DNA of 64,000 nucleotides from Candidatus Pantoea gossypiicola. GTDB taxonomy: Bacteria; Pseudomonadota; Gammaproteobacteria; Enterobacterales; Enterobacteriaceae. Positions 2,602 through 52,749 of this stretch are shown here, piece after piece. The notes beneath the pieces are model-generated. The model was not told the DNA's origin, did not search any database, and worked only from the letters and a program-made list of their open reading frames with translations. The stretch spans positions 248,001-312,000 of the forward strand of contig NZ_VWVM01000004.1 in NCBI RefSeq assembly GCF_008632075.1, read 5' to 3'. Numbering within the stretch: position 1 is the first letter of the stretch; each line of letters opens with the position of its first letter. A program made the translations under genes and the position numbers.

Positions 2602-4251
2602 TTACAGCGCCATGTCGTGTTTCGCTGAAGGCGCAGCCTGCTGCGGCTGTGCTGCCGGCGCGTCTGCGGTTTTGCCTTCCATGTTGATCACGGGCGGCGT
2701 GGTCAGCTGCAGGGTCGCTGCGGTCTCATTCCAGACCTGCTGCAGCAACGGCACGTTGTCATTCAGTTTCTGACCGTAGCCTGGGATCATTTTGTGGATC
2801 TTCGCCTGCCATTCCGGTGATTTGAACTCTTCCGGGAACAGTTTCTGCATAACGCTCAGAGAGATTGGCGCTGCGGTTGATGCACCAGGAGAAGCACCCA
2901 GCAGAGCCGCCACGGTTTTCTGCTGATCGGTCACAATTTCTGTTCCCAGCTTCAGCACGCCACCTTTGTCAGCATCTTTCTTGATAATCTGTACACGCTG
3001 ACCGGCCTGAATCAGTTTCCAGTCCTCTTTCTTCGCGTCCGGGTAGTACTCTTTCAGCGACTCGAAGCGATCTTCATCACTCAGCATCACCTGTCCGATC
3101 AGGTATTTCACCAGGTCGAAGTTATCCATACCCACATCGGTCATTGGCACGATGTTATGGGTAGTGGTGGTGCTCAGCAAATCAAACAGCGAGCCGTTTT
3201 TCAGGAACTTGGTTGAGAAGGTCGCAAACGGTCCAAACAGCACGACGCGTTTGCCATCCAGATAACGGGTATCCAGATGCGGAACGGACATCGGCGGTGC
3301 ACCGGTTGACGCCTGGCCATAAACTTTTGCCAGATGACGATCGGCAATGGCACTGTTTTCGGTAACCAGGAATGAACCACCGACCGGGAAGCCTGCATAG
3401 TTATCTGCTTCCGGGATGCCGGTCTTCTGCAGTAATTTCAGCGCACCGCCGCCTGCACCGATGAAGACATATTTCGCGTCAACCGCACGTTCACTGCCGT
3501 TTTTGGCATCTTTAATCGTGACGTGCCAGGAGTTGTCGCCGTTACGTTTGAAATCGGTAACTTCAGAGGAGGTTTCCAGACGGAAGTTGTCATTCTTCTT
3601 CAGGCTGCCGATCAGCTGACGGGTAATTTCACCGTAGTTAACGTCGGTACCCACTGGTGTCCAGGTGGCAGCCACTTTCTGCTGTGGATCACGACCTTCC
3701 ATCACCAGCGGTGCCCACTGCGCGATCTGTTTGTGATCGGTAGAGAACTTCATGCCCTGGAACAGCGCCGTTTTCTGCAGTGCCGCATAGCGCTTGGTCA
3801 GGAAGTCGACGTTGTCGCCCCAGACAAAACTCATGTGTGGCGTTGAGTTGATGAAAGAGCGCGGGTCGTGCAGTACGCCCTCTTTAATCTGAGCGCTCCA
3901 GAACTGGCGAGACACCATAAACGCTTCATTGATTTCCAGCGCTTTGGACACGTCAATCGAACCATCTTTACGCTCAGGCGTATAGTTCAGCTCCATGTTG
4001 GCAGAGTGACCGGTACCGGCGTTATTCCAGCCGTTAGAGGATTCCAGCGCCACGCCATCCAGCTTCTCGACCATGATCTGTTTCCAGCCAGGCTGCAGCT
4101 CTTCCAGCATGGTGCCCATGGAGGCACTCATAATGCCGCCGCCAATCAACAGGACATCGGTTTTCTCTGGTGAGGTCTCAGCGTGGAGGGCTGAAGAAAC
4201 TAACAAGGCCGCGAGGGAAAGAGTGGGAATAACTTTCTTTGAATTCATCAT
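2602..4251 (-). CDS. mqo: Malate:quinone oxidoreductase
   Basis: Membrane-associated FAD enzyme that oxidises L-malate to oxaloacetate and passes electrons to quinone, an alternative to NAD-malate dehydrogenase in the TCA cycle. The 549-residue protein matches the enterobacterial family almost end to end: FAD dinucleotide motif [13 protein letters not shown] near residue 32, [35 protein letters not shown], and [11 protein letters not shown] near the C-terminus. Residues 1-24 form a signal-like hydrophobic leader ([14 protein letters not shown]), as in Escherichia coli Mqo. No strong Shine-Dalgarno precedes the ATG pair at 4251/4248. It is divergent from dcuSR and borders the fumarate block, so malate can be oxidised aerobically here and reduced to succinate by the neighbouring system without oxygen. 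Confidence 0.95.
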
Positions 4252-4557
4252 TTTAATCTACAGCTCGGACGGTACTGGTTAAAAAAAGTCCTTAAAGTTT
4301 AAAATAATGTTATTTGTGAGTTAATGTGAAAATAGTTATAAAATTAAAAATAGCAATTTAGCCTTAATTTAATTACAAAAGGCTTACTGAATTGCTCACA
4401 TATTTTAACCACACATTAAGGGTGTCCTTTGAATTATACAATCCCCTAACCCAAATATTGTTATTGCTCTGTTGCCCGTGCGCAGACCGCTAAAACTGTA
4501 CTGAAGCGGTGAGTTAGCGTATGTTTCAAGCCGATTCCCTACCCGTGCTGAACAGCG
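4252..4557. promoter_or_regulatory. AT-rich divergent promoter region mqo / dcuS
   Basis: These 306 bases separate the divergent mqo and dcuS genes and are clearly richer in A and T than the flanking genes, especially 4270-4430. A direct repeat TGTGA-N5-TGTGA lies near 4315-4330. It is not a canonical CRP palindrome. I see no perfect FNR box and no small gene. Confidence 0.5.
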
Positions 4558-6192
4558 ATGACAAGCCAACCACAGAACCGACATGCCGTGACTAAACAAC
4601 CCATGAAACTCAGTACCCTGACCACCCTGATGATGACTGCGGTGATCGTTACCGTGCTGCTCGCTGTCCATCTGCTCTATTTCGTTCAGATTGATAACTT
4701 TGCACAGTCGCATCTTAAAGATAAAGCGATGGCAGTGGCGCGTACGCTGGCAGACAGCCCGGAAGTGCAGCGCGGGTTATTGTTGCCAGACGGCAGCAGC
4801 CAGATTCAGCCGCTGGCGGAAGCTGCGCGCAAACGCAACGGCCTGCTGTTTGTGGTGGTGACGGATATGCGCGGTATTCGCTTTTCACATCCGAATGCCG
4901 CGGTGATCGGCAAACATTTTGTCGGCAATGACATCTATCCCACGCTGAGTGGCCGGGAAAATGTGGCGGTCAATCATGGCGTGCTGGTGGAAGCACTGCG
5001 GGTCTTTACGCCGGTTTATAACGCGCAGCATCAGCAGATTGGCGTGGTGGCAATCGGCATTGCGCTGAATGATGTGGCGGCCCAGATAGCGAATAGCCGC
5101 TGGAATATCGTCTGGACCGTCCTGTTTGGCGGCGTGGTCGGGTTACTGGGTATGCTCATTCTGGTCAGGCGACTCAAGAAAATACTGCTTGGCCTGGAGC
5201 CGCACGAAATCTCCAGCCTGTTTGAACAGCGTCAGGCGATCCTGAATTCCATTAAAGAAGGGGTGATTGCGGTCGATGATCAGTCACGCGTCAGCCTGAT
5301 TAACCACGCGGCTCAGCAGCTGCTGCATGAGACCACCCGCAGGATGCCGTTAAACGGTGATCGGATTGCTGAGGAGAGCGTCATGCATCGTCATCAGCAG
5401 GATGCGCTGCATGCGGGCAAAGCCTGGCACGATCAGGAGCTGACGCTGGGTAATCGTATCCTGATTAGCAACACCGTTCCGGTGCGAAGTCGTGACCGCA
5501 TTATCGGCGCGGTAACCACCTTCAGGGATAAGACCGAAATCAGCCAGCTGATGCAGCGTCTGGACGGCATGGTAAACTATGTGGATGCTTTACGTGAGCG
5601 GTCCCATGAGTTCATGAACAAGCTGCATGTGATTCTGGGCCTGCTGCATATGAAAAATTATGCACAGATGGAAGAGTACATACTGAAAACCGCTAACGCC
5701 TATCAGACGGAGATCGGTTCGCTGCTGCAAAAGATCAAATCGCCGATCATTGCCGGCTTCCTGCTTAGCAAAATCAACCGGGTAACCGATGAAGGTCATC
5801 AGTTGATTATCGATGAGGCGAGTTTTCTGCCTGACTGCGGCAGCGAGGAGCAGAGCGCAGTTCTGATTACCGTGCTGGGCAATTTAATTGAAAATGCCCT
5901 TGAGGCGCTGGACCCGGAAACCGAAGGGGAAATTCACCTCATGCTGCATTATCAGAATGGCTGGCTGGCCTGCGAAGTAAGTGATGACGGGCCAGGTATA
6001 GACAGCTCGCAGCTCAGCGCCATTTTTGAGCGCGGCGTCTCGTCAAAAGGTGACGATCGCGGTGTCGGACTGTTTCTGGTTAAGCAGCAGACCGAAAGCC
6101 TGGGCGGCAATGTCAGTGTCGAGTCGGAACCCGGTGTATTTACCCAATTTTTAGTGCAACTTCCGTGGGAGAGAGGAATGATTACCCAATGA
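4558..6192 (+). CDS. dcuS: C4-dicarboxylate sensor histidine kinase DcuS
   Basis: Membrane histidine kinase that senses fumarate, malate, succinate and related dicarboxylates in the periplasm and phosphorylates DcuR. The 544 residues align with E. coli DcuS throughout. The order is membrane helix about 20-42, periplasmic PAS domain to about 180, second helix about 184-204, cytoplasmic PAS, a DHp helix with the phospho-acceptor in RERSHEFMNKLH (His350), and an HATPase domain with NLIENALEAL and DDGPGID. Residues matching the known ligand-binding set of E. coli DcuS are all present, here Arg108, His111, Phe121 and Arg148. The start is the ATG that aligns with the E. coli N-terminus. It overlaps dcuR by ATGA, so the two are translationally coupled. 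Its targets are probably the fumarate genes next door. Confidence 0.95.
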   Translation: MTSQPQNRHAVTKQPMKLSTLTTLMMTAVIVTVLLAVHLLYFVQIDNFAQSHLKDKAMAVARTLADSPEVQRGLLLPDGSSQIQPLAEAARKRNGLLFVVVTDMRGIRFSHPNAAVIGKHFVGNDIYPTLSGRENVAVNHGVLVEALRVFTPVYNAQHQQIGVVAIGIALNDVAAQIANSRWNIVWTVLFGGVVGLLGMLILVRRLKKILLGLEPHEISSLFEQRQAILNSIKEGVIAVDDQSRVSLINHAAQQLLHETTRRMPLNGDRIAEESVMHRHQQDALHAGKAWHDQELTLGNRILISNTVPVRSRDRIIGAVTTFRDKTEISQLMQRLDGMVNYVDALRERSHEFMNKLHVILGLLHMKNYAQMEEYILKTANAYQTEIGSLLQKIKSPIIAGFLLSKINRVTDEGHQLIIDEASFLPDCGSEEQSAVLITVLGNLIENALEALDPETEGEIHLMLHYQNGWLACEVSDDGPGIDSSQLSAIFERGVSSKGDDRGVGLFLVKQQTESLGGNVSVESEPGVFTQFLVQLPWERGMITQ

Positions 6193-6908
6193 TCAATGTG
6201 TTAGTTGTCGATGATGACGCCATGGTAGCCGAGCTGAATCGCTGTTATATCGGGCAGATCCCAGGTTTTACCTGCTGCGGCACGGCCTCAACCTTACAGC
6301 AGGCCAAAGAGCGGCTGGCCGAGGCTGAACCACAGGTTGATCTGATCCTGCTCGACATCTATATGCAGCAGGAAAACGGTCTTGATCTGCTGCCAGAGCT
6401 GCGCAGCGCAGGACGCCCGGTTGACGTGATTATTATCTCATCAGCGGCAGATGCCGCCACGATCAAGACTTCGCTCAACTATGGCGTGGTGGATTACCTG
6501 ATCAAGCCTTTCCAGTTTGCCCGCTTTGAAGAGGCGCTGACCGGCTGGCGGCAGAAAAAATCGCTGATGGATAATCATCAGTTCTATCAGCAGTCGGACG
6601 TTGATCAGCTGTTGCATGGTAATCCGCCTGGTGCCAGCGAACAGAAACGCCTGCCGAAAGGGTTAACGCCGCAGACGCTGCGTACGCTGTGCCTGTGGAT
6701 CGACGCCCATCCCGGCACTGAGTTCTCTACCGACGAACTGGCGACCGAAGTGAATATCTCACGCGTTTCGTGCCGTAAATACCTGATCTGGCTGGCGCAG
6801 ATTAATATTCTGTTCACCAGCATTCATTATGGGGTCACGGGCCGTCCGGTTTACCGTTATCGTCTGCAGCCGGAGTATCACACCTTACTCAAACAATACT
6901 GTCAGTGA
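6189..6908 (+). CDS. dcuR: C4-dicarboxylate response regulator DcuR
   Basis: Response regulator partner of DcuS, 239 residues. The receiver domain opens MINVLVVDDDAMVAELN, and the phosphorylated aspartate is Asp56 in LILLDIYMQ. The conserved Lys lies in DYLIKPFQ. The C-terminal half has the CitB/DcuR-type helix-turn-helix, STDELATEVNISRVSCRKYL, and ends TGRPVYRYRL...LLKQYCQ as in E. coli. The start is the ATG at 6189, overlapping the dcuS stop, with GAGAGAGG 12 bases upstream; an upstream in-frame ATG at 6165 would add eight residues unlike the family. In E. coli DcuR activates the fumarate transporter and anaerobic fumarase and fumarate reductase genes. Here the likely targets are the divergent fumarate reductase and transporter genes at 10.7-14.6 kb. 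Confidence 0.95.
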   Translation: MINVLVVDDDAMVAELNRCYIGQIPGFTCCGTASTLQQAKERLAEAEPQVDLILLDIYMQQENGLDLLPELRSAGRPVDVIIISSAADAATIKTSLNYGVVDYLIKPFQFARFEEALTGWRQKKSLMDNHQFYQQSDVDQLLHGNPPGASEQKRLPKGLTPQTLRTLCLWIDAHPGTEFSTDELATEVNISRVSCRKYLIWLAQINILFTSIHYGVTGRPVYRYRLQPEYHTLLKQYCQ

Positions 6909-7864
6909 ACCAGCCGGTAGTCCGTGTCGAGTAACTGAAACGAAAAGTGACGTTGTGACGAGCAGATGATCTGCCTGTCACGGGTCACAAAGATAGCTTC
7001 AATGCCCGGTTTGTCGGCAAGGCAGGCGATACCCTTTTCTACGCCCAGTCCGTACAGCAGCGTCGTGTAGATGTCGCCATCCAGCGAGCGATCGGAAATC
7101 ACGGTCACGCTCAGCAGCTCGTTATCCAGCGGATAACCGGTCTGTGGATCAAGGATGTGGTGATAACAGACCTCATCCAGCTCGAAATAGCGCTCATAGA
7201 TACCGGACGTCACGACCGAGCGATTGTTGACACCGATGACACCGATCAGCGCATCGGCTTCACCAAACGGCTTCTTCAGACCGATTGCCCAGCCTGGAGC
7301 TTCTGGCGGTGCGCCCACCGTCTGGACGTTGCCGCCCAGATTAATCAACGCACTGCTGACCTGCTGCTGGCGCAAAAAAGCCTGGACTACGTCGGCGATA
7401 TAGCCCTTGGCGATGGCACCCAGGTCAATCTCCATTCCTGAACGTGCCAGCATCACGCTGCGGGTGGCAGCATCAAGGATGACGTCCTGCGGATTAATCA
7501 GCGTCATGCGCGCCTGAAGATCGGCTTCTGATGGAACGCTGTGGCCCTGAAAACCAATTTTCCAGCACTTCACCAGCGGACCGATAGCCAGATTAAACAG
7601 GCTGTCAGGCAAAAGGCTCACCGCATGCGCACAGGCGATCAAATCAAACACCGGCTGACTGACGACCACCGCATGCTCCCCTGCCGCGTGGTTAATCGCC
7701 ATAACTTCCGATGCCGCGCGATTGACGGTGAAGAGATTCTCCTGTTGTTTGATCAGGCGAAAAACCTGCCTGGCCAGCGTCTGGTTGTCTTCGAAGAGTT
7801 TGAGCAGGATGGGCGAACCCATTAATACAGCGGAGTAAGCATAGACACGCGCATCAGTTAACAT
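6902..7864 (-). CDS. apbE: FAD:protein FMN transferase (ApbE-like, cytoplasmic)
   Basis: Transfers FMN from FAD to a threonine or serine of a target protein. The 320-residue product carries the family landmarks: FNLAIGPLVKCW, EIDLGAIAKGYIADVV, the LINLGGNVQTVG segment, VVTSGIYERYF, HHILDPQTGYP and a C-terminal D-x-x-TTLLYGLG. Unlike classical ApbE it has no signal peptide or lipobox, so it should work in the cytoplasm. The start is the ATG at 7864; an upstream in-frame codon would add an unconserved 11 residues. It is 62 bases downstream of the fumarate reductase gene on the same strand, and that enzyme contains an FMN_bind domain, which is the obvious substrate. It overlaps the convergent dcuR stop by 7 bases. 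Confidence 0.93.
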   Translation of the reverse strand: MLTDARVYAYSAVLMGSPILLKLFEDNQTLARQVFRLIKQQENLFTVNRAASEVMAINHAAGEHAVVVSQPVFDLIACAHAVSLLPDSLFNLAIGPLVKCWKIGFQGHSVPSEADLQARMTLINPQDVILDAATRSVMLARSGMEIDLGAIAKGYIADVVQAFLRQQQVSSALINLGGNVQTVGAPPEAPGWAIGLKKPFGEADALIGVIGVNNRSVVTSGIYERYFELDEVCYHHILDPQTGYPLDNELLSVTVISDRSLDGDIYTTLLYGLGVEKGIACLADKPGIEAIFVTRDRQIICSSQRHFSFQLLDTDYRLVH

Positions 7865-7926
7865 AGGCGACTCTGCTTTAAAAGGAAAAACCGGCACCCG
7901 CAGGATGCGGATGCCGGAGACTGCCG

Positions 7927-10707
7927 TTAACGTCGGGCGTAGGCAGCGGCGTTACCGCCAGCCAGGATACCGAAGATGATGATATCTGCAACGGCGTTAC
8001 CGCCAATACGGTTCGCGCCATGAATGCCGCCAACCACCTCGCCACACGCCCAGGCACCGTTAATTACCTGTTTCTGGCTGTCCAGCACCGCGGTGGTGGT
8101 ATCGATGGTGACGCCGCCCATAGTGTGGTGCACGCCCGGAGCGACACGAATCGCGTAGAATGGCGCTTCGCTCAGCGGATGACGCAGCGCAGTCTGGCGA
8201 CCGAAGTCTTCGTCTTTCTGCATCATCACAAAGTTGTTGTAACGCGCCAGCGTCGCTTCCAGCGTGTGATGCTCACTCATGTTAAGTTTCACCGCCAGTT
8301 CCGCCACGGTTGGCGCGCTGACCACAAAGCCCTTGGCGATGTACTCGTCAGCCGCTTTGTTGTTCATACGCACCTGCTCGTCAAACACAATCCAGGCACT
8401 CTTCTCTGGCAGCGCAATAATCTGCGCCGAGACTTTATCGCGGGTCTCCATTTCGTTGTAGAAACGCTTGCCAGCCTGACTGACCAGGATAGCACCGCCG
8501 CCGCGAATCGATTCAGAGACCAGATAAGAGGTGGTCTGCTCAACCGTTGGGTGAATCTGGATTTCCTTCATATCCACGGTATCGGCACCAATTTTCTGCA
8601 ACATCGCAATGCCGCTACCGGTCGCGCCTGCGTGGTTGGTAGTCACGAAGCCATCCAGTTCAGGACGGTATTTCACCACCAGCTCACGGTTCGCACTGAA
8701 GCCACCGGTTGCCACAATCACGCTTTTAGCGTTCAGAATACGGCTGTCGTTATATTCATCGACTACTTTCACGCCCGCGACTGCGCCATTCTCATAGAGG
8801 ATCTCGGCAACTGAGGTTTCCAGCAGAACTTCGATGTTGCGGCTGTTGATGTTTTTTACCAGGCCGCTAATCAGGAAGCCACCCACCGCTGAGCGGTCAG
8901 CCGGACGGTGCGTACGGTCGATGCTCATTCCGCCGGTAATGGTGATGTCGTTAAGCTCAATGCCTTTACCGGCCAGCCACTCAATCGCCTCAGGCGCCAG
9001 GTCAACAAACTCGCGCAGCAATACCGGGTTGTTTTTGAACTGTCCGCCTTTGAGCGTCTCTTCATAGAACAGCTCTTTGCTGTCTTCGATGCCTTTAAGT
9101 TTCTGGAAACGGGTTTCAGCCGCGTTCATGCCCACAGATGCTTTGATGGTGTTGCCGCCAATGGTCGGCATCTTCTCGATGATAACCACACGTGCGCCTT
9201 CATCGTGCGCCTGAATCGCGGCCGCCAGACCGGCACCGCCGCTGCCCACAACCACCACATCGTAGTTCTGCGGTGCGTTAGGGTTACCACCCTCTTCAAT
9301 CACATGCTCTTTGCTGGAGGTAGTCAGCGCACGGGAAACCGCTTTTTTCAGCGCTTCACTCTGGGTGGTCGCGCCGGTAATCGCATCAACGTGGGGACTG
9401 TTAGCCACCAGAATGCGGTTACGCAGGCTTTCAAAGGTGGTGGTGAAGTCCACATCCAGCGTGTCGTCCGGCACCAGCGAAATGTCGGTAATACGGTCGG
9501 TATCCAGTGTGACGTTGATTTTTAGCTTCAGCGCTTCGGCTTCCACTTTCTCCTGGTAAACACCCGCTTTGTATTTACGGCCCGATTCGCTCATGTCGCG
9601 GATCATCGCGTCAACCAGCGAGAAGCGCCACAGCGGTTCCGGGATCTGCAGCTCTTCGCGTTTATTGCTGTCGATGTAGAGTTCGAGATGTTCGTTATTG
9701 ATGATGCGGTCAGCCCAGTTCGGATAGGCGATACAGGCTTTACCAATCGCTACCAGATCGTAGCCTTTTTCCAGCGCCAGCTCGGCGTCGGCTTTATTCA
9801 CCACGCCGCCGACACCAATCACCGGCACTTTTGCCAGCACAGGCGAGCGCATCGCAACGAACTTCTCGATCAGCGGCGTCGGGTCCTGCGTATCGACAAT
9901 CGACGGGCGCAGCAACTGCCCCACAGAGAAGTGGACATAATCGAGTCCGCGTGCGGCCAGTTTTTCCAGCAGATAGAGGGTGTCGTCAAAGCGGATGCCG
10001 GGCACTTCAATCTCTTCCGGCGAGAAGCGATAGCCAATGATGAACGAGTTATGGGCGAAGCGCTCCGCCATCTTGTGGGTGATTTCCAGCACCTCCAGTG
10101 GGAAGCGCGCGCGGTTATCGCGGCTGCCGCCCCACTTGTCATCGCGCTGGTTGGAATTCGGAGAATAGAACTGCTGAATCAGATAGGTGTTAGCACCATG
10201 AATTTCGACGCCGTCGAAACCGGCCTTGATAGCACGGTTCACCGCATCACCAAATTTGGTGATCATGGTTTCGACTTCTTCAGCGCTTAGCGCCAGGGGT
10301 TTAGTTGCCCCTTCACGCGGTGCGGCAATGGCGCTCGGCGCAACCGGGGTTTTCCCGCCGATCAGTTCCGGCTCGACCATGCGGCCACCGTGATAGATCT
10401 GCAGAATGGCCGTTGAGCCTTCAGATTTAATCGCATCCGCGATGCGTTTCAGACCGGGGATTTTGTTGTCGCTGTCTATAGCAATGGCACCCGGAAACGC
10501 CGGGCCGCGGTTATCAATAAAGCAGCACTCAACGATCACAGTTCCGATGCTGCCTGCACGTGCGCGGTAATACTCGACCAGTTCGCTGGTGACCGTTCCG
10601 TCATAAAAGCCGGTACAGGTGGTCATGGGGGCCATCACCAGTCGGTTTTTTAATACAGCGCCGCCAGGCAGGGTAAGTGGATTAAGGATGGGGGTGAGAG
10701 ATTTCAT
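7927..10707 (-). CDS. Soluble NADH-type fumarate reductase: OYE + FMN_bind + FAD_binding_2 fusion
   Basis: A 926-residue three-domain flavoenzyme. Residues about 1-370 are an Old-Yellow-Enzyme barrel (HGANTYLIQQFYSPNSNQRD). Residues about 390-460 are an FMN_bind domain with the flavinylation motif DAITGATTQS, whose acceptor is probably Thr447. The rest is a fumarate-reductase flavoprotein domain with GSGGAGLAAA at 488, IQIHPTVEQ, the METRDK segment, VHHTMGGV and GANRIGGNA, which carry the substrate-binding His and Arg residues of the family. No signal peptide is present, so it is cytoplasmic. Klebsiella has a characterised enzyme of this architecture that reduces fumarate with NADH. The start is ATG 10707, preceded by GGAG; the upstream TTG at 10722 overlaps that site and is rejected. 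It is probably co-transcribed with apbE. Confidence 0.92.
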   Translation of the reverse strand: MKSLTPILNPLTLPGGAVLKNRLVMAPMTTCTGFYDGTVTSELVEYYRARAGSIGTVIVECCFIDNRGPAFPGAIAIDSDNKIPGLKRIADAIKSEGSTAILQIYHGGRMVEPELIGGKTPVAPSAIAAPREGATKPLALSAEEVETMITKFGDAVNRAIKAGFDGVEIHGANTYLIQQFYSPNSNQRDDKWGGSRDNRARFPLEVLEITHKMAERFAHNSFIIGYRFSPEEIEVPGIRFDDTLYLLEKLAARGLDYVHFSVGQLLRPSIVDTQDPTPLIEKFVAMRSPVLAKVPVIGVGGVVNKADAELALEKGYDLVAIGKACIAYPNWADRIINNEHLELYIDSNKREELQIPEPLWRFSLVDAMIRDMSESGRKYKAGVYQEKVEAEALKLKINVTLDTDRITDISLVPDDTLDVDFTTTFESLRNRILVANSPHVDAITGATTQSEALKKAVSRALTTSSKEHVIEEGGNPNAPQNYDVVVVGSGGAGLAAAIQAHDEGARVVIIEKMPTIGGNTIKASVGMNAAETRFQKLKGIEDSKELFYEETLKGGQFKNNPVLLREFVDLAPEAIEWLAGKGIELNDITITGGMSIDRTHRPADRSAVGGFLISGLVKNINSRNIEVLLETSVAEILYENGAVAGVKVVDEYNDSRILNAKSVIVATGGFSANRELVVKYRPELDGFVTTNHAGATGSGIAMLQKIGADTVDMKEIQIHPTVEQTTSYLVSESIRGGGAILVSQAGKRFYNEMETRDKVSAQIIALPEKSAWIVFDEQVRMNNKAADEYIAKGFVVSAPTVAELAVKLNMSEHHTLEATLARYNNFVMMQKDEDFGRQTALRHPLSEAPFYAIRVAPGVHHTMGGVTIDTTTAVLDSQKQVINGAWACGEVVGGIHGANRIGGNAVADIIIFGILAGGNAAAYARR

Positions 10708-10920
10708 TGCGATAAACTCCAAGATTTAAAAGTCTGGAAATTTTTTAGCGGACGCAAATTATCGCTTAATTAAGTGGTCCGATGTCATGTGTCTAATATA
10801 CCTTTTTCTTTGCTTACATAAGCGATAAATTTACTTTTTTAACTTTTAAACGATTCAGAGGTTTTATTTGCTGAATTCAGGGAGTAAAGCTATATTAATT
10901 GTTAACTATAGGTAACTAAA

Positions 10921-10935
10921 AATCAACCATTGATT
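10921..10935. promoter_or_regulatory. Inverted repeat AATCAA-CCA-TTGATT
   Basis: A perfect 6-bp inverted repeat with a 3-base spacer. It resembles an FNR half-site pair in the wrong (outward) order, so it is more likely an operator for another regulator, for example DcuR. This is speculative. Confidence 0.4.
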
Positions 10936-11098
10936 CACATAAATAATTTACCCTTCATGATCATGGTGTTAAGATGAAAAACTCGGCTGAGGTCTTCCTG
11001 GGATTTGTCGATCAGCTTCACAAAACTGTCAGAATGTCGATGTCAGAAATATAAATAAAAAATAAATGTTAAAAACGGGGAATAATGAATAAATTTCT

Positions 11099-11112
11099 TT
11101 GATCTGGATCAA
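11099..11112. promoter_or_regulatory. Perfect FNR box TTGATCTGGATCAA
   Basis: The sequence matches the FNR consensus TTGAT-N4-ATCAA at all ten fixed positions. It lies 186 bases before the transporter ATG and about 390 bases before the fumarate reductase ATG. This predicts activation under oxygen limitation, which suits a fumarate uptake and reduction system. Confidence 0.8.
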
Positions 11113-11297
11113 AATCTATATTTGCAAAAATCGCATCATATTTACATGGATTTAAAAATGCTGCTCAATAGTCCAGCAGCAGATTAAAAAAAATCAGTGC
11201 ATCGCGGTTTATTCACACTATTAAGAATAAATAAGAAAGTCATCAGTGAAGGTCCGGGGCGCAAATCGCATTCTTCTCAACGTGCAGATAAAATACT

Positions 11298-12806
11298 ATG
11301 AAACCACTCTCAGCTGTAACTGAACCCCCTAAAGCCGCTCCTGCGGCTCCGGGTAAAAAGAAAGCTATCATGCTGGCTCTGCCAGTCATCGTTGCCGTGC
11401 TGCTGTTGCTGGTGCCAACACCGGCCGGTCTTGAACCCTATGCCTGGCACTTCTTCGCCATCTTTGTCGGCGTGATTGTCGGCTTGATCTTTGAACCGCT
11501 GCCCGGTGCCGTTATCGGTCTGACCGGCGTCGTGGCCATTGCGCTGTTCAGTCAGTTTGTCCTCTTCAGCCCGGCGGAACTGGCTAACCCAAAATTCAAA
11601 GTCGCCAGTGAGTCCTTTAAGTGGGCAGTCAGCGGTTTCGGTAACTCCACGGTCTGGCTCATCTTCGGTGCCTTTATGTTCGCCGCCGGCTATGATAAGA
11701 CGCAGTTTGGTCGTCGTCTGGCTCTGATTCTGGTGAAATATCTGGGTCGCCGCAGCCTGACGCTGGGTTATGCCATTACCTTCGCTGACCTGCTTCTGGC
11801 ACCGTTTACTCCCTCCAATACCGCGCGCAGTGGCGGTACTATCTATCCGATTATCGCTAACCTGCCTCCGCTTTACGGTTCTAAACCCAACGACCCGAGC
11901 GCCCGTAAGATCGGTTCGTACCTGATGTGGGTCGCCATCACCGCAGCCTGTATTACCAGCTCAATGTTCCTCTCTGCCCTGGCACCTAACCTGCTGGCAC
12001 TGGCGCTGGTGAAAAGCATCATCGGTTTTGATATTTCATGGGGTATGTGGTTCCTGGCCTTCCTGCCGCTGGGCGTGCTGCTGATTCTGACCATGCCGCT
12101 GCTGGCTTACTGGTTCTATCCCCCTGAAGTCAAAATCAACGATGAAGTGCCGAAATGGGCTATCGCTGAACTGGAGAAACTGGGCCGCCTGACCCGTAAC
12201 GAAATCCTGCTGCTGGTGTTTGTGGTCTGTGCCCTGCTGATGTGGATCTTCGCCACCTCGTGGATTGAGCCTGCGATGGCTGCGCTGCTGGTGGTGGTAC
12301 TGATGCTGTGGACCGGCGTCCTGAACTGGAACGACATTACCAGCAACAAACCGGCCTGGAACACCTTTGCCTGGTTCGCAACGCTGGTGGCGCTGGCTGA
12401 TGGCCTGGCTCGCGTTGGCTTTATCGCCTGGTTAGGTAAAGAAGGTGGCATGCTGCTTCAGGGTTATGACCCGCAGATTTCAGCCGTGGTGCTGTTGATC
12501 GCCTTCTTCCTGCTCCACTACCTGTTTGCCAGTACCACGGCACATACCACTGCCCTGTTACCGGCCATGCTGACCATCGCAGCGTCAATCCCAGGCATCA
12601 ATATGCCAGTCTTCTGTCTGATGCTGTGTACCTCTCTGGGTGTGATGGGCATCATCACTCCATACGGTACTGGCCCAAGCCCGATTTATTACGGCAGCGG
12701 TTATCTGCCGACAAAAGATTACTGGCGTCTGGGTACCATCTTCGGTGCCATCTTCCTGGTTTCTATGATGGTGATTGCTTATCCGTGGATGGTGTGGATG
12801 TTCTGA
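11298..12806 (+). CDS. DASS-family dicarboxylate transporter (CitT/TtdT type)
   Basis: Inner-membrane anion transporter of 502 residues with at least 11 hydrophobic segments. Both SNT-type substrate signatures of the divalent anion:sodium symporter family are visible: APFTPSNTARSGG near residue 175 and FASTTAHTTALLPAM near residue 415. The bacterial CitT and TtdT subgroup exchanges citrate or tartrate for succinate. Between a fumarate reductase and a fumarase the likely job is uptake of fumarate or malate in exchange for succinate. The N-terminus (about 22 residues, proline, alanine and lysine-rich) is cytoplasmic. It is followed after 156 bases, including a strong hairpin, by fumarase on the same strand. 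The exact substrate cannot be told. Confidence 0.88.
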   Translation: MKPLSAVTEPPKAAPAAPGKKKAIMLALPVIVAVLLLLVPTPAGLEPYAWHFFAIFVGVIVGLIFEPLPGAVIGLTGVVAIALFSQFVLFSPAELANPKFKVASESFKWAVSGFGNSTVWLIFGAFMFAAGYDKTQFGRRLALILVKYLGRRSLTLGYAITFADLLLAPFTPSNTARSGGTIYPIIANLPPLYGSKPNDPSARKIGSYLMWVAITAACITSSMFLSALAPNLLALALVKSIIGFDISWGMWFLAFLPLGVLLILTMPLLAYWFYPPEVKINDEVPKWAIAELEKLGRLTRNEILLLVFVVCALLMWIFATSWIEPAMAALLVVVLMLWTGVLNWNDITSNKPAWNTFAWFATLVALADGLARVGFIAWLGKEGGMLLQGYDPQISAVVLLIAFFLLHYLFASTTAHTTALLPAMLTIAASIPGINMPVFCLMLCTSLGVMGIITPYGTGPSPIYYGSGYLPTKDYWRLGTIFGAIFLVSMMVIAYPWMVWMF

Positions 12807-12856
12807 CGGATACAACATGCAGATCAACGCGTTATAAGATACCATTCCTTCACTTC

Positions 12857-12876
12857 CCCGCCGCACCCGCGGCGGG
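12857..12876 (+). terminator. Intercistronic GC hairpin between transporter and fumarase
   Basis: CCCGCCGC pairs perfectly with GCGGCGGG around an ACCC loop. There is no T-run after it, so it may stabilise the upstream transcript or attenuate rather than terminate it. Confidence 0.5.
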
Positions 12877-12962
12877 AAAGCATAATAAACAATGAATTCG
12901 CCTATGATGTTGCGCCCCGCAGCCTGCCCGCGGAGGTTCAGCCGGTCATTAAGTGAGAAAAA

Positions 12963-14609
12963 ATGTCGAACAAACCTTTTGTCTATCAGAACCCTTTTCC
13001 GCTGTCCCACGAAGATACTGAATACTATTTGCTGACTCGCGAGCATGTCTCGGTCGCTGAGTTTGAGGGTCAGGAGATCCTTAAAGTCGATCCGCAGGCG
13101 CTGACCCTGCTGAGCCAGCAGGCGTTTCACGACGCCTCTTTCATGCTGCGTCCGGCCCATCAGCAGCAGGTAGCCTCCATCCTTCATGACCCGGAAGCCA
13201 GCGACAATGACAAATATGTCGCCCTGCAGTTTTTAAGAAACTCTGAAATTGCTGCCAAAGGCGTGCTGCCGACCTGTCAGGATACCGGCACCGCGATCAT
13301 CATGGGCAAAAAGGGCCAGCGCGTCTGGACCGGTGGCGGCGATGAAGCCGCGCTGTCACAGGGTATCTACAACACCTACATCGAAGACAACCTGCGCTAT
13401 TCGCAGAATGCCGCGCTGGATATGTACAAAGAGGTGAACACCGGCACTAACCTGCCGGCGCAGATCGACCTCTACAGCGTCGATGGCGATGAGTATAAAT
13501 TCCTCTGTATCGCCAAAGGTGGCGGCTCCGCTAACAAAACCTATCTCTATCAGGAAACCAAAGCGCTGCTCAGCCCCGGCAAGCTGAAAAATTACCTGGT
13601 AGATAAGATGCGCACCCTCGGCACCGCAGCCTGCCCGCCTTATCATATTGCGTTTGTTATCGGCGGCACCTCGGCTGAAAGCACCCTGAAAACCGTTAAG
13701 CTCGCCTCGACGCACTATTACGACGGCTTACCAACTGAAGGCAACGAGCACGGTCAGGCTTTCCGCGACGTTCAGCTTGAGCAGGAACTGCTGGAAGCGG
13801 CGCAGCAACTCGGCCTTGGCGCGCAGTTTGGCGGCAAATATTTCGCGCACGACATCCGCGTGGTGCGTCTGCCGCGTCACGGCGCCTCCTGTCCGATCGG
13901 CATGGGCGTCTCCTGCTCGGCTGACCGTAATATCAAAGCGAAAATTAACCGCGAAGGTATCTGGATTGAGAAACTGGAAGCCAACCCAGGCCGCCTGATC
14001 CCGGAAGCACTGCGTCAGCAGGGCGAAGGTGAAGTGTTGCAGGTTGATCTCAACCGCCCAATGGAGCAGATTCTGGCGCAGCTTTCTGCGTATCCCGTCT
14101 CTACCCGCCTGTCACTGACCGGCACCATTATCGTGGCACGCGACATTGCTCATGCCAAACTCAAAGAGCGCATCGATAACGGCGAAGGATTACCGCAGTA
14201 CATTAAAGATCATCCGGTCTATTACGCCGGTCCGGCCAAAACGCCTGAAGGTTATGCGTCCGGTTCACTCGGCCCGACCACCGCAGGCCGCATGGACTCC
14301 TACGTCGATCTGCTACAGGCTCACGGCGGCAGCAAGATCATGCTGGCAAAAGGCAACCGCAGCCAGCAGGTGACGGATGCCTGTCATAAACATGGCGGCT
14401 TCTATCTGGGCAGCATCGGTGGCCCGGCCGCGGTGCTGGCGCAGCAGAGCATCAAGAGTCTGGAATGCGTTGAGTATCCTGAGCTGGGAATGGAAGCGAT
14501 CTGGAAAATCGAGGTCGAGAACTTCCCTGCGTTTATCCTGGTCGATGACAAAGGTAATGACTTCTTCCAGCATATTGAGCGCGCGCACTGCGCAAAATGC
14601 GTGAAGTAG
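12963..14609 (+). CDS. fumA: Class I fumarate hydratase (iron-sulfur)
   Basis: Interconverts fumarate and L-malate with an oxygen-sensitive [4Fe-4S] cluster. The 548 residues match E. coli FumA/FumB in length and throughout. The cluster cysteines are in place: Cys105 (PTCQDTGTA), Cys224 (TAACPPYH) and Cys318 ([11 protein letters not shown]). Other landmarks are KGGGSANK and [16 protein letters not shown]. FumA and FumB cannot be separated from sequence alone. Its place in a fumarate-reduction block argues for the anaerobic role, converting malate to fumarate for the adjacent reductase. A conventional terminator follows. Confidence 0.95.
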
Positions 14610-14626
14610 AAACTGCGTCAGATAAG

Positions 14627-14654
14627 AAAAAAGCCCCGGTTTCGGGGCTTTTTT
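14627..14654 (+). terminator. Rho-independent terminator after fumA
   Basis: AAAAAGCCCC and GGGGCTTTTT pair around a GGTTTC centre, with a T-run at 14648-14654. Confidence 0.9.
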
Positions 14655-14790
14655 TATGAGCAAAATCAGGCCACTGAGCTGTCAGAGATCCTGCACATAC
14701 TGCCCATCGTGGTGACATGTCTGAAGCTCAAACTTGATTGTCAGTCCAGACAAACTGGCACTATCCCCTCCATTCAGCACCCATGATACC

Positions 14791-14840
14791 TTGCCATTAT
14801 ACCTCGCAGGCTATAATCTAATCATAGCTCGCAGGTTATA
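14791..14840 (+). promoter_or_regulatory. Promoter and repeated operator of the HigBA-type operon
   Basis: A -10-like TATAAT (14812-14817) and a -35-like TTGCCA (14791-14796, 15-base spacing) overlap two direct repeats: CTCGCAGGCTATA at 14803-14815 and CTCGCAGGTTATA at 14828-14840. Repeats over the promoter are the usual binding site of the antitoxin, giving autorepression. Confidence 0.6.
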
Positions 14841-14855
14841 GATGGAGATGGATTA

Positions 14856-15227
14856 ATGACATGGGAAGTCATCACAAGAACGCTGTTTGATGTCTGGTAT
14901 GAAAAGCAAACCGACGATGTTCAGGAAGAGATTGCAGCCTACTTCCTGATCCTTGAAGAGACTGGCCCCCAATTAGGGCGTCCGCATGTAGATCAGGTTA
15001 AAGCGTCTGAATATAAAAACATGAAAGAGTTGCGTATACAGATTGGCGGACATCCATTTCGCGCATTCTTCGCCTTTGATCCTGAACGCAAGGCGATTGT
15101 CCTGTGTGCAGGAGATAAAAAAGGTGAAGATGAAAAACTCTTCTACAAACGTATGACTAAAATTGCAGATGCTGAGTTCACCTCGCATCTGGAATCACCG
15201 GAGATTAAACACGATGGCAACGCTTAA
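14856..15227 (+). CDS. RelE/HigB-family toxin
   Basis: A 123-residue protein of the HigB-like RelE superfamily: DVWYEKQTDDVQEEI, the LGRPHVDQVKAS segment, MKELRIQIGGHPFRAFFAFD and AIVLCAGDKKGEDEKLFYKR. Members cleave mRNA on the ribosome. The toxin precedes the antitoxin, the HigBA order, and overlaps it by 14 bases. The ATG at 14856 has GGAG 8-12 bases upstream. The operon has its own promoter with repeats and its own terminator, so it is a self-contained unit. Toxicity is inferred from family only. Confidence 0.88.
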   Translation: MTWEVITRTLFDVWYEKQTDDVQEEIAAYFLILEETGPQLGRPHVDQVKASEYKNMKELRIQIGGHPFRAFFAFDPERKAIVLCAGDKKGEDEKLFYKRMTKIADAEFTSHLESPEIKHDGNA

Positions 15228-15513
15228 AGAAATGATGGCTAAACGCTCCCCGGAGAGCCGTGCGCGTATAGAATCTCGTGCTGCTGAAATCCGTCAGGAG
15301 ATCACACTTGCCAGACTGCGTGAGGAATTATCTGTTTCGCAGACACATCTGGCTGAAGTTTTAGGCGTCAAACAACCTTCTGTTGCTAAAATAGAAAACG
15401 TTGATAACGATCCTAAGCTCTCAACGCTGAGACGCTATATTGCAGGTCTGGGAGGAGAGCTGACTCTTGATGTCACGTTACCCGACGGCAAGCGTATTGC
15501 TCTGAGTCTTTAA
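15214..15513 (+). CDS. XRE-family HigA-like antitoxin
   Basis: A 99-residue helix-turn-helix protein: REELSVSQTHLAEVLGVKQP is followed by SVAKIENVDNDPKLSTLRRY, a typical XRE/Cro fold of the HigA type, with a charged N-terminal arm (residues 1-35) that probably wraps the toxin. It starts at ATG 15214 inside the end of the toxin gene; an earlier in-frame ATG at 15163 would add 17 residues from the toxin frame and is unlikely. It should bind the toxin and the direct repeats upstream of the operon. Confidence 0.88.
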   Translation: MATLKEMMAKRSPESRARIESRAAEIRQEITLARLREELSVSQTHLAEVLGVKQPSVAKIENVDNDPKLSTLRRYIAGLGGELTLDVTLPDGKRIALSL

Positions 15514-15539
15514 CAGACTCTGCTTCAGGCCACATCCTG

Positions 15540-15560
15540 ACCCCGCTACGGTGGGGTTTA
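15540..15560 (+). terminator. Terminator with a TACG loop after the toxin-antitoxin operon
   Basis: ACCCCGC pairs with GTGGGGT (one G-T pair) around a TACG tetraloop, followed by TTATAAT. This is a stable, short terminator-like hairpin. Confidence 0.6.
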
Positions 15561-15689
15561 TAATGGCTGCCCTCATAAGGTGACAAGCTGAGATTAACGA
15601 CAGAAATGTCCTTGATTTAGAGAGTTAAAAATAGCCGACGCTAACATTCATTTGCAGTCACTAAATGAAAGCGCCGCTATCAGACCCTG

Positions 15690-49710: not shown

Positions 49711-51348
49711 CTAAAGCGTTTGTAATGCCGCAAACACGCTGGCGACTGCAACCGCACCGGGATCCGGCACGCCATTCAGGTTCGCGCTATTGAGATAAGA
49801 TGATCGGCCCGCCTTTGCTTTCCCCATGCTGGCGGTTGCATCACTGCCCTGCTGCGCCGCATCTGCTGCTGCTGCCAGCGATTTGCCCGCCACCAGCGCC
49901 TCAATCGCGGGCTGGAGCGCATCAATCAGTGTACGATCGCCCGGTTTAGCCCCGCCATACTGCTTCATTTTTTCCAGACCCTGTTGTAAAGCGACCGGTA
50001 AGACATCCCCTTCCGACAGGTGCTGCGCCGCGGCGGTGAAGAAGATAGCCATCAACACGCCGCTGGAACCACCCATCACCGTGGCCAGTCGCTCACCTGT
50101 TACCGCGAGCAGGTCGGGCAGAACATTCAGCGGCAGCTGGTTATCGGCGCATTCACGCTGGATCTGACGCGCGCCAGCAGCAAAGGTCGAGCCGGTATCC
50201 CCGTCACCCACCTGCGCATCGAGTTTATTCAGCTCGCTTTCACTGGCAATCAGCGTTTCACAGATGCGGTTCACAAAGGCAGCGACCGCCGGGTTTTCGG
50301 AGGGTTGCACCGGATGCGCTGTCGTCTCCCGGGTTGCGTTAACCGGCTGCCGCGAGGTGATCTCAACCGCCGGAACCCAGCCGGTCACTTCGACCGGGGC
50401 GCAGATTGCCGCTTCGAACAGCGGCGTCAGCGTCATGCAGGTGACAGAAAAGCCCTTCATGTCCAGCGCGGTCATCAGCGGTGCCGGGCCAATCAGATAA
50501 CGGCTTCCCCGGCTGAGCGGCGACTCAATCAGATCACGTGTGACCAGACTCATCTCCAGCGCCGACATTCCACCAAGGTTATTCACCAGCAGCGCACAGG
50601 GCTGATCCTTGCCTGGCATCACCTTCTCCAGCAGATGCTGCACAATCTGCTGACTGTTCTGAGTCGGCATGACGTCAACGCCCGGCTCGCCGTGAATCCC
50701 CAGCCCCATTTCCACACTACCGTCGGGCACCCGCTGGCCGGTCTGTTCATCCGGCAGATGACAGCTGGAAAGCGCTACCCCCATGCTGGCGATAGCACGA
50801 CTGGCGGTCTCTGCGGCCTCAGTTACCGCCGCCAAATCATCACCCCGCTCGGCGACAAAGCCTGCCACTTTATGCACCAGCAACGTGCCTGCCACGCCGC
50901 GTGGCTGAGGATTATCCGGTAAGGCCACATCGTCACCGACAATCACCATATTGACGCTGAACCCTGCATTGCGGGCCTTTTCAGCCGCCAGCCCAAAGTT
51001 GAGTCGATCGCCGGTGTAGTTTTTCACAATCAGCAGACAGCCCGCGTCACCGGTAAGGTTGATGATGGCGTTATAAACCGCATCAACGCTGGGTGAGGCA
51101 AACACATCGCCACAGACGGCCGCCGTCAGCATTCCTTTACCGATGAAGCCGACGTGCGCCGGTTCATGGCCGGAACCGCCACCGGAGATCAGTGCGACCT
51201 GCTGTTTTTTCCAGTCCCTGCGCATCACGATGCGAATGTGGGGATCGACCTGCAGCCGCACCAGATTGCGCCACGGACTGGCGTAAATCATGCCATCCAG
51301 CGCGTTGTCGACGAGTTCATCCTTTTTATTCATTACGAATCGGGTCAT
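49711..51348 (-). CDS. ATP-dependent dihydroxyacetone kinase (DhaK-DhaL fusion)
   Basis: Phosphorylates dihydroxyacetone to dihydroxyacetone phosphate using ATP. The 545 residues join a DhaK domain (substrate loop ALISGGGSGHEPAH, covalent substrate histidine His219 in GLGIHGEPG, VNNLGGMSALE) and a DhaL domain (LDAQVGDGDTGSTFAAG, GGSSGVLMAIFF, DATASMGKAKAGRSSYL). One-chain enzymes of this size are the Citrobacter-type ATP kinases, unlike the PTS-dependent DhaKLM of E. coli. The start is ATG 51348 with GAGGAA upstream; the frame extends 28 codons further without support. It is divergent from fucO, 252 bases away. Confidence 0.93.
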   Translation of the reverse strand: MTRFVMNKKDELVDNALDGMIYASPWRNLVRLQVDPHIRIVMRRDWKKQQVALISGGGSGHEPAHVGFIGKGMLTAAVCGDVFASPSVDAVYNAIINLTGDAGCLLIVKNYTGDRLNFGLAAEKARNAGFSVNMVIVGDDVALPDNPQPRGVAGTLLVHKVAGFVAERGDDLAAVTEAAETASRAIASMGVALSSCHLPDEQTGQRVPDGSVEMGLGIHGEPGVDVMPTQNSQQIVQHLLEKVMPGKDQPCALLVNNLGGMSALEMSLVTRDLIESPLSRGSRYLIGPAPLMTALDMKGFSVTCMTLTPLFEAAICAPVEVTGWVPAVEITSRQPVNATRETTAHPVQPSENPAVAAFVNRICETLIASESELNKLDAQVGDGDTGSTFAAGARQIQRECADNQLPLNVLPDLLAVTGERLATVMGGSSGVLMAIFFTAAAQHLSEGDVLPVALQQGLEKMKQYGGAKPGDRTLIDALQPAIEALVAGKSLAAAADAAQQGSDATASMGKAKAGRSSYLNSANLNGVPDPGAVAVASVFAALQTL

Positions 51349-51600
51349 GTCTTCATTCCTCATGGGCGGACAGGTATGTGATAACGAAGTGTTGCACACA
51401 ACTGACGATGGGCATAATCCACCGCCTCTCATCGCGACCCCATCAGACGAAAGCTCTGCCTGAATGAAATGCGCGCAGCACTCTTTACTAATTCATTGAT
51501 TTTTATCAAATGTCCTTACCTTAAACTGAGAGGTTATGCGCAGAACCTGAAAAGCGGATAACGGATCGTAGAAAACCATTTGTTAACAGAGGATGTTTTG

Positions 51601-52749
51601 ATGACTCAACGTATGATTCTGAATGAAACCGCCTGGTTTGGTGCTGGCGCATTGCGTCATTTGCCTGAAGAGGTAAAGCGTCGCGGGATGCGTAAAGCGC
51701 TTATTGTCACTGACAAAGCGCTGATTGCGGCCGGTGCGCTGAAGCGGATTACTGACCTGCTGGAACAGCATCAGCTTGACTGGGCGGTCTATGATGAGGT
51801 CGTGCCGAATCCGACTATCCGGGTCGTGCAGCAGGGCGTTGCTATGTTCAGGGAATCAGGTGCTGATTACCTCATTGCCATCGGCGGTGGTTCACCGCAG
51901 GACACCAGCAAAGCCATCGGCATTATTATCAACAACCCTGAATTCGAGGATGTTCGCAGTCTGGAAGGCGTCAGCCCAACCCGTCATCCGTGCGTGCCTA
52001 TCATTGCTATACCGACCACGGCAGGTACCGCGGCAGAAGTCACCATTAACTATGTCATCACCGACGAAGAGAATCGTCGCAAGTTTGTCTGCGTCGATCC
52101 GCATGACATTCCAAAAGTGGCGATTATTGATGCGGAGATGATGGCGAGCATGCCCGCCTCGCTGAAAGCGGCCACCGGTATTGATGCCCTGACTCACGCG
52201 ATTGAAGGGTACATTACGCGCGGTGCCTGGCCCCTGACTGACATGCTGCACCTCAAAGCCATTGAAATTATCAGCCAGTCGCTGCGCGAATCGGTGGCCG
52301 GAAATATTGCTGCTGTTGAGCAGATGGCGCTGGGGCAGTATGTGGCCGGTATGGGCTTCTCCAATGTCGGACTCGGTCTGGTGCATGGTATGGCGCATCC
52401 GCTGGGTGCCTTTTACAACGTGCCGCACGGCGTGGCGAACGCCATTCTGCTGCCACAGGTGATGGCGTGGAATGCCCCGTCAACAGGCGAAAAATATCGC
52501 GATATTGCCCGTGCGATGGGTGTGAAACAAGTGGACACACTGACGCTGGATCAGGCGCGGGAAGCGGCTGTCGCTGCGGTTCGTCAGCTCTGCCGCGATG
52601 TGGGTATTCCGCGTTCGCTGCGCGAGGTCGGCTTACAGGAGGCGGATATCCCTGCCCTGGCGCAGGCGGCGCTGGATGACGTCTGCACCGGCGGTAACCC
52701 CCGGACGCCCGATCTGGAAGCGGTGATGGCGCTCTATCGTCAGAGTTAA
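51601..52749 (+). CDS. fucO: Lactaldehyde reductase / 1,2-propanediol oxidoreductase
   Basis: Iron-dependent group III alcohol dehydrogenase, 382 residues, close to E. coli FucO from end to end (RMILNETAWFGAGAL, YLIAIGGGSPQDTSKAIGI, AGTAAEVTINYVITDEENRR). Iron ligands are Asp195 and His199 (GIDALTHAIEGY), His262 (GLVHGMAHPLGAF) and His276 (NVPHG). It reduces L-lactaldehyde to 1,2-propanediol with NADH and acts on related C2-C3 aldehydes. No fucose or rhamnose genes are nearby, so its role beside dihydroxyacetone kinase may be in C3 or aldehyde metabolism. The start is ATG 51601 with AGAGGA 10 bases upstream. A terminator follows. Confidence 0.93.
   Translation: MTQRMILNETAWFGAGALRHLPEEVKRRGMRKALIVTDKALIAAGALKRITDLLEQHQLDWAVYDEVVPNPTIRVVQQGVAMFRESGADYLIAIGGGSPQDTSKAIGIIINNPEFEDVRSLEGVSPTRHPCVPIIAIPTTAGTAAEVTINYVITDEENRRKFVCVDPHDIPKVAIIDAEMMASMPASLKAATGIDALTHAIEGYITRGAWPLTDMLHLKAIEIISQSLRESVAGNIAAVEQMALGQYVAGMGFSNVGLGLVHGMAHPLGAFYNVPHGVANAILLPQVMAWNAPSTGEKYRDIARAMGVKQVDTLTLDQAREAAVAAVRQLCRDVGIPRSLREVGLQEADIPALAQAALDDVCTGGNPRTPDLEAVMALYRQS

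Follow-up and report, generated by a model that had tools for sequence, protein, structure and literature searches.

Does a compact cluster of six genes in a Pantoea genome provide a route of anaerobic fumarate reduction that can do without the membrane complex FrdABCD? The cluster is located at positions 4558-14609 of a 64,000-nucleotide stretch of Candidatus Pantoea gossypiicola (contig NZ_VWVM01000004.1, positions 248,001 to 312,000; this whole stretch is called the window below). It comprises intact genes for the sensor kinase DcuS, the response regulator DcuR, the flavin transferase ApbE, a three-domain soluble reductase, a transporter of the DASS family, and a class I fumarase. The analysis suggests, with a probability of about 0.8, that these genes form a module for anaerobic fumarate reduction under predicted control of DcuSR and FNR, in which the soluble, ApbE-flavinylated reductase stands in for the FrdABCD complex that the genus appears to lack.

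The source genome comprises 4.94 Mb in 47 contigs (completeness 100), the window being part of contig C34. A previous reading of the same DNA from its letters and open reading frames (the sequence-only reading) had named all six genes at this place, and these identities are borne out by family and domain matches, as follows:

4558-6192, plus strand: dcuS, C4-dicarboxylate sensor kinase (open reading frame of 544 amino acids; NF008298, 775 bits, cut-off 520)
6189-6908, plus strand: dcuR, response regulator (NF007750, 446 bits, cut-off 262; open reading frame from GTG 6165)
6902-7864, minus strand: apbE, FAD:protein FMN transferase (PF02424, 263.6 bits; open reading frame extends to 7897)
7927-10707, minus strand: predicted soluble fumarate reductase, 926 amino acids (PF00724, PF04205 and PF00890; open reading frame 7927-10722)
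11099-11112, unstranded: perfect FNR box TTGATCTGGATCAA between the reductase and transporter genes
11137-11142, plus strand (towards the transporter): weakly conserved -10-like element CATATT, 31.5 bp from the centre of the FNR box
11298-12806, plus strand: DASS-family dicarboxylate transporter, predicted exchanger type (TIGR00785, 493 bits, cut-off 198.6)
12963-14609, plus strand: fumA-type class I fumarase (NF011919, FumA, 1202 bits, cut-off 1105)
2602-4251, minus strand: mqo, malate:quinone oxidoreductase, a neighbour outside the core unit (NF003605, 949 bits)

The reductase most likely starts at ATG 10707, because in two relatives a stop codon directly precedes this ATG. The starts of dcuR (6189) and apbE (7864) are probable, since the gene lengths on the P. 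vagans plasmid pPag3 fit them; the pPag3 homologue of dcuS is annotated from the position equivalent to ATG 4603. A scan of the window against Rfam returned no families.

The reductase and the apparent absence of FrdABCD

The reductase unites an OYE-like domain (PF00724), an FMN_bind domain (PF04205) and a FAD_binding_2 domain (PF00890) in a single chain, a combination which we take to define the Klebsiella pneumoniae-type enzyme. These domains place it with the cytoplasmic NADH:fumarate oxidoreductase known from K. pneumoniae, and the enzyme is therefore not new. The C-terminal half matched flavocytochrome c3 fumarate reductase with 403 bits and urocanate reductase with 288 bits. Residues H365, E378, R381, R402, H504 and R544 are all identical to those of flavocytochrome c3 that presumably form the active site and the proton path, and H170, N173 and Y175 of the OYE-like domain, by our reading the active-site triad of OYE enzymes, do not vary among the 14 sequences aligned. 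No signal sequence was seen in the protein by eye. By analogy with the K. pneumoniae relative, the Pantoea enzyme would take its electrons from NADH and pass them to fumarate, and the energetics of the route are likewise modelled on that relative.

A scan of genome contigs gave 299 relatives, and all locus counts given here refer to the best 80 of these 299. The flavinylation motif of the reductase, D441-A-I-T-G-A-T447, is kept in all 81 proteins (the window and the 80 loci); such motifs have been defined as D-x-x-[S/T]-G-A-[S/T] (PMC12052999). The adjoining apbE gene (6902-7864) encodes a protein whose score on PRK10461, the model for periplasmic ApbE, is only 130 bits (cut-off 498) and in which no signal peptide was recognised by eye. 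In K. pneumoniae, a cytoplasmic ApbE is essential for the covalent flavin of the reductase (PMC12052999). The source genome contains two ApbE genes and two FMN_bind proteins, namely the reductase and one encoded on contig C23.

Searches for FrdABCD covered FrdA and FrdC. Among the 36 genomes of the genus, including the source genome, FrdC was found in none, and none contained FrdA above the cut-off, the best match to the FrdA family reaching 535 bits against 933. Each of the two proteins was found in 11 of 24 genomes outside the genus, as well as in the E. coli control. The reductase was present, in full or nearly so, in 32 of the 36 genomes. These data agree with the route bypassing FrdABCD that the sequence-only reading had put forward, and the metabolism proposed there is well supported by the sequence, as the best among the readings considered. 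No other fumarate reductase seems to be present in the genus Pantoea, and the island of this enzyme appears to carry the only DcuR found.

Conservation of the six-gene unit

Island order was compared across the relatives, a gene being scored as absent from a locus if tblastn gave no match at E 1e-10 over 60% of the query in the fetched stretch. All six genes were found in 49 of the 80 loci, where they span 9.8-10.4 kb, and in each of these 49 complete islands their order and strands were identical; both counts show the grouping to exceed chance and support a conserved unit. Complete islands occur in records titled Pantoea, Erwinia, Izhakiella, Rahnella and Ewingella, and also in those titled Mangrovibacter, Hafnia, Lelliottia, Enterobacter and Kosakonia. 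A further 16 loci contain the transporter and reductase only, and 15 are otherwise incomplete, seven of them ending at a contig end near the reductase. The scattering of the genes in relatives, which the sequence-only reading had named as the finding that would speak against a unit, was thus not seen for the complete island, and the 16 transporter-reductase loci are the part of the sample that leans that way.

These pair-only loci (L059, L062-L066, L069, L071, L080, L081, L090, L097, L101-L103 and L105) contain neither apbE, dcuSR and fumA nor an exact FNR box. Since the flavinylation motif is kept in them, an ApbE encoded elsewhere in the genome would have to act. Seven of ten proteins neighbouring the pairs had Pfam matches at 1e-10, and these were of mixed kinds, so no common theme emerged; two share a type VI secretion protein.

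Two neighbouring elements were considered as parts of the unit and rejected. The mqo gene adjoins the island in only 9 of 80 loci, belonging to eight Pantoea-titled records and Kosakonia cowanii. Directly after fumA, at 14856-15513, the window encodes a RelE/Gp49-type toxin and a helix-turn-helix antitoxin; this pair was found in 0 of 80 loci at the threshold used, though it is present on pPag3.

On a wider scale, in none of 5426 E. coli genomes did a single location match 80% of the 11.4 kb query, and the 20 E. coli matches listed were all fumB. Among 394 sampled genomes of the order, 40 contained the reductase at E 1e-200. In a 2.4 Mb genome of the genus Pantoea, a reductase-like stretch (G014:C3:283565-284380) with several stops, 69% identical over part of its length, looks like a decayed copy. 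Among the open-access literature matches listed, no title dealt with this island or with a soluble Pantoea fumarate reductase, subscription journals being mostly outside this coverage.

Predicted regulation by DcuSR and FNR

DcuS and DcuR both score above the curated cut-offs of their families, and DcuS remains below that of the malate sensor MalK (388 bits against 800). DcuS aligns over the sensor domain of its E. coli counterpart (3by8) and keeps R108, H111, F121 and R148, presumably the ligand-contact residues. DcuR above the cut-off was found as a single copy in 30 of the 36 genus genomes, in all 30 at a distance of 1020-1319 bases from the reductase. In one other genome (G005), DcuR is split into two fragments that score below the cut-off, and DcuR is likewise missing from the four genomes that lack the reductase. 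The sequence-only reading had regarded DcuSR as the island's own pair; a second DcuR above the family cut-off was sought in the source genome and none was found, so the island does not seem to add a pair of its own to a general one. E. coli DcuSR controls dcuB, fumB and frdABCD (PMC10636207), and the island therefore gathers counterparts of that regulon. The dcuSR genes have been deleted in a study of Erwinia amylovora, the main text of which does not mention fumarate (PMC2698875).

The perfect FNR box TTGATCTGGATCAA between the divergent reductase and transporter genes had no place in the sequence-only reading. When 2000 sequences with the composition of this intergenic region were sampled, 13 contained an exact match to such a box. 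An exact box lies between the two genes in 54 of the 73 loci having both (seven of the 80 loci, without a transporter match, were left out), against 0.19 expected from sampled dinucleotide chains, which are not exact shuffles. All 49 complete islands contain it and none of the 16 transporter-reductase pairs does; it is found in two of five islands without dcuSR and in three of three other incomplete loci. In a footprint of 50 complete islands, including that of the window, little is conserved around the box save the -10-like CATATT, whose spacing from the box centre is close to class II activator geometry. The occurrence of DcuSR and of the box points to control of the island by both DcuR and FNR.

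Other candidate sites were set aside. An FNR-like site with one mismatch at 10930-10943 was not counted, being unseen in the seven nearest relatives printed (L052-L058), and no claim is made for CRP-like sites, of which 19 were found and 24.5 expected. Five loci (L091, L092, L094, L104 and L122) contain apbE, the reductase, the transporter and fumA with no dcuSR match; three of them (L092, L094 and L104) are also without the exact FNR box, as though the loss of one control tended to accompany that of the other. Another perfect FNR-like box, TTGATTTTTATCAA, occurs at window positions 51496-51509, flanked by a dihydroxyacetone-kinase-like gene (49711-51432, minus strand; just below the family cut-off) and a lactaldehyde reductase gene (51580-52749, plus strand), and this region is possibly another oxygen-controlled outlet for NADH.

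Transport and the proposed pathway

The solved relatives of the transporter are LaINDY, the best match, and two chloroplast dicarboxylate transporters (four distinct sequences at E 0.001). In LaINDY, one Arg and one His occupy the sodium sites with a second His 4 A away, and these residues are conserved in exchangers (PMC7553777). R177, H407 and H416 of the Pantoea transporter align with LaINDY R159, H392 and H401, and Glu146 of LaINDY is replaced by Asp164. Since the exchanger-type Arg and both His residues are kept, a DASS transporter of the exchanger type working by antiport is favoured, in line with the antiport-type transport expected beforehand; the direction of transport given below is a predicted one.

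In the proposed pathway, DcuS would sense an extracellular C4-dicarboxylate and DcuR would activate the unit, and FNR, active without oxygen, would bind its box between the two divergent operons. The exchanger would bring in malate or fumarate and release succinate, with FumA converting malate to fumarate. In the reductase, electrons from NADH are expected to pass through the OYE-like FMN domain to the covalent FMN, attached in the cytoplasm by ApbE, then to FAD, and finally to fumarate, yielding succinate. The gain would be regeneration of NAD+, not quinone-linked energy conservation.

Several observations weigh against this interpretation. The reductase is missing in 4 of the 36 genus genomes, and another of them (G010) has the reductase without DcuR. 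No DcuR site was recognised in the footprint of 50 complete islands. NADH and NADPH cannot be told apart as donors from the protein sequence, and the genome may hold another fumarate-reducing flavoprotein. FrdC is retained in no fewer than 16 of the genomes that carry a complete island; replacement of FrdABCD is therefore not a necessary consequence of having it.

Other functions can be envisaged for the cluster. Its reductase may use NADPH or another carrier, and its role would then not be the disposal of NADH; the OYE superfamily includes NADPH-dependent enzymes, judging from match titles, and the donor is not readable from the sequence, but a paper citing work on the K. pneumoniae relative calls that enzyme NADH-dependent (PMC11325843), and this alternative seems rather improbable. 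It is improbable, too, that the enzyme acts mainly on another unsaturated acid, such as acrylate, urocanate or a cinnamate, and merely resembles a fumarate reductase. The same superfamily does have relatives with such substrates, as the 288-bit match to urocanate reductase illustrates, and many members with unassigned substrates (PMC8238504). However, flavocytochrome c3 fumarate reductase scores higher, at 403 bits, the residues that presumably bind both fumarate carboxylates are kept, and fumarase, DcuSR and a dicarboxylate exchanger adjoin the reductase in 49 of 80 loci. Finally, the presence of mqo beside the island in the window and in 9 of 80 loci could mean that the cluster serves general use of C4-acids, with malate going to the neighbouring Mqo and fumarate reduction being secondary; yet mqo is missing beside 71 of the 80 loci and the FNR box points to expression without oxygen, which makes this highly improbable. 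The anaerobic module for fumarate reduction thus remains the preferred explanation.

Possible replacement of FrdABCD outside the source genome

Whether the island and FrdABCD exclude each other can be followed in two samples. In the order sample, the same family code comprises 34 genomes, 24 with FrdC and 10 in which none was found. Four of these 10 do not exceed 1.2 Mb in genome size, and six contain the reductase; eight of the 24 FrdC-holding genomes have it (Fisher 0.005). This value, like that of 1.5e-15 from the 80-locus analysis, overstates the evidence, the genomes not being independent.

For named genomes, 50 of the 80 loci were submitted and 48 searched. FrdC was found in 36 of these 48 reductase-containing genomes and not in the other 12, which are ten titled Pantoea, Izhakiella australiensis and Erwinia piriflorinigrans. 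Ten of the 12 have a complete island, one locus (L061) is cut by a contig end, and one (L088) has no intact dcuR match. Among the 36 FrdC-holding genomes are Pantoea sp. BAV 3049 and ten further genomes titled Erwinia; 16 of the 36 are represented by the locus of a complete island and 15 by that of a pair, FrdC being present in all 15 pair-locus genomes searched. As FrdC is kept in many island genomes, the presence of the island is not in itself enough to bring about the loss of FrdABCD. Pantoea, and perhaps two further lineages, seem to have lost the membrane enzyme.

A broader proposal, to which we give slightly less than even odds, is that the complete island under FNR and DcuSR is a plug-in replacement for FrdABCD. 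Its holders in Pantoea, and perhaps separately in Izhakiella and Erwinia piriflorinigrans, would have dropped FrdABCD for a soluble NADH sink; genomes with pairs lacking the FNR box would have kept it; and in the agglomerans-ananatis group the function would have come to lie on a large megaplasmid.

Location and mobility of the island

In the plasmid collection, the best match to window positions 4200-15600 is P. vagans pPag3, with 95.1% identity over the entire stretch and the same gene order. The plasmid records closest to the window are megaplasmids such as this one, and the window's copy of the island is probably also on a megaplasmid. The pPag3 plasmid of another strain has been named large Pantoea plasmid 1 (PMC4675950). 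In a paper listing mqo as a conserved gene of LPP-1 plasmids, the words 'flavocytochrome', 'fumarase' and 'fumarate' do not occur in the text (PMC3505739).

A quick tree of 89 reductase sequences, with support from the Shimodaira-Hasegawa-like approximate likelihood-ratio test (SH-aLRT) only and no mixture model, groups the window reductase with P. agglomerans-type copies (SH-aLRT 99). Pairs from Rahnella and one from Ewingella nest among Erwinia copies, and complete islands belonging to another clade are found in both genera as well. The two copies in Pantoea sp. BAV 3049 fall into separate clades. For the transporter-reductase pairs and for BAV 3049 this suggests transfer across genera, support being moderate at some forks.

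The sequence-only reading had further held the island to be mobile as a unit. This fits the window's own copy poorly, as it groups with other Pantoea copies and the annotation of pPag3 shows no mobility genes next to the island there; the transfer suggested above concerns other members of the family. Recent acquisition of the window's copy as a mobile island would be consistent with the presence of the same six genes in several genera, with the island being on megaplasmids in Pantoea and Rahnella records and on the chromosome in Pantoea sp. SOD02, and with the occurrence in Rahnella and BAV 3049 of two copies from different parts of the tree. Such an origin is nevertheless unlikely. Besides the grouping with P. 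agglomerans-type copies, the window lacks tRNA genes, and up to 9 kb from the pPag3 reductase no gene is annotated as an integrase or transposase, the gene table of this plasmid being incomplete. The G+C content of the island (49-56%) is inside the range of the window (49-63%), and all 90 plasmid-collection records with the reductase, one of them a K. pneumoniae record of 5.37 Mb, are predicted to be non-mobilizable. The marks of a mobile island (a tRNA border, an integrase or transposase near the pPag3 copy, deviating composition) were thus lacking, att repeats and integrases in the window itself not having been searched for. No sign of recent mobility was seen for the window's own copy.

Some records carry doubtful labels (L136, L100, L073 and L085). 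The K. pneumoniae record of 5.37 Mb (L136, CP125156.1) is labelled 'plasmid', which looks wrong. The same applies to a contig of a 'Halomonas' metagenome-assembled genome with an 86% identical reductase, and to two 'Enterobacter' records; the reductases of all three are inside the Pantoea part of the tree.

Comparison with known systems

If the proposed function is correct, a plant-associated genus reduces fumarate solely by a soluble enzyme, forming succinate anaerobically would contribute nothing to its proton motive force via quinone-linked respiration, and in part of the genus the function depends on a megaplasmid. Pantoea would then offer a natural experiment on the conditions under which quinone-linked fumarate respiration becomes dispensable, and the island would be a compact, ready-made module for succinate work, combining exchanger, fumarase, reductase, maturation enzyme and control.

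The cytoplasmic NADH:fumarate oxidoreductase of K. pneumoniae, KPK_2907, and its signal-less ApbE were reportedly described by Bertsova, Bogachev and co-workers in 2014 and 2020. In one K. pneumoniae record the reductase is 72% identical over 87% of the protein, though not one open frame, and the transporter, reductase, apbE, dcuR and dcuS are arranged as in Pantoea, with an exact FNR box. That cluster differs in having no fumA beside it; Pantoea differs from K. pneumoniae in apparently being without FrdABCD and, for the window copy, in the probable location on a megaplasmid.

The reductase class is called independent of the electron transport chain and NADH-dependent in a paper on Gilliamella that cites Bertsova et al. 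2020 (PMC11325843). According to this source, Gilliamella likewise has a long reductase of this kind and has lost frdAB, but unlike Pantoea it kept frdCD and has no fumarate transporter gene. In our order sample, 25 genomes of one genus code (2.2-3.1 Mb; perhaps Gilliamella) contained the reductase at 65-68% identity.

With the DcuSR regulon of E. coli the island shares the sensor-regulator family and the task, comprising import, fumarase, fumarate reductase and release of succinate (PMC10636207), whereas in Pantoea a soluble reductase takes the place of FrdABCD, a DASS exchanger that of DcuB, and everything is in one block. LaINDY, the best solved relative of this exchanger, has the same Arg and His markers and differs at Glu146, which corresponds to Asp164. 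The enzyme class being known, what is noteworthy in Pantoea is that the island holds the apparent sole fumarate reductase and sole DcuR of the genus, together with a conserved FNR box, probably on a megaplasmid.

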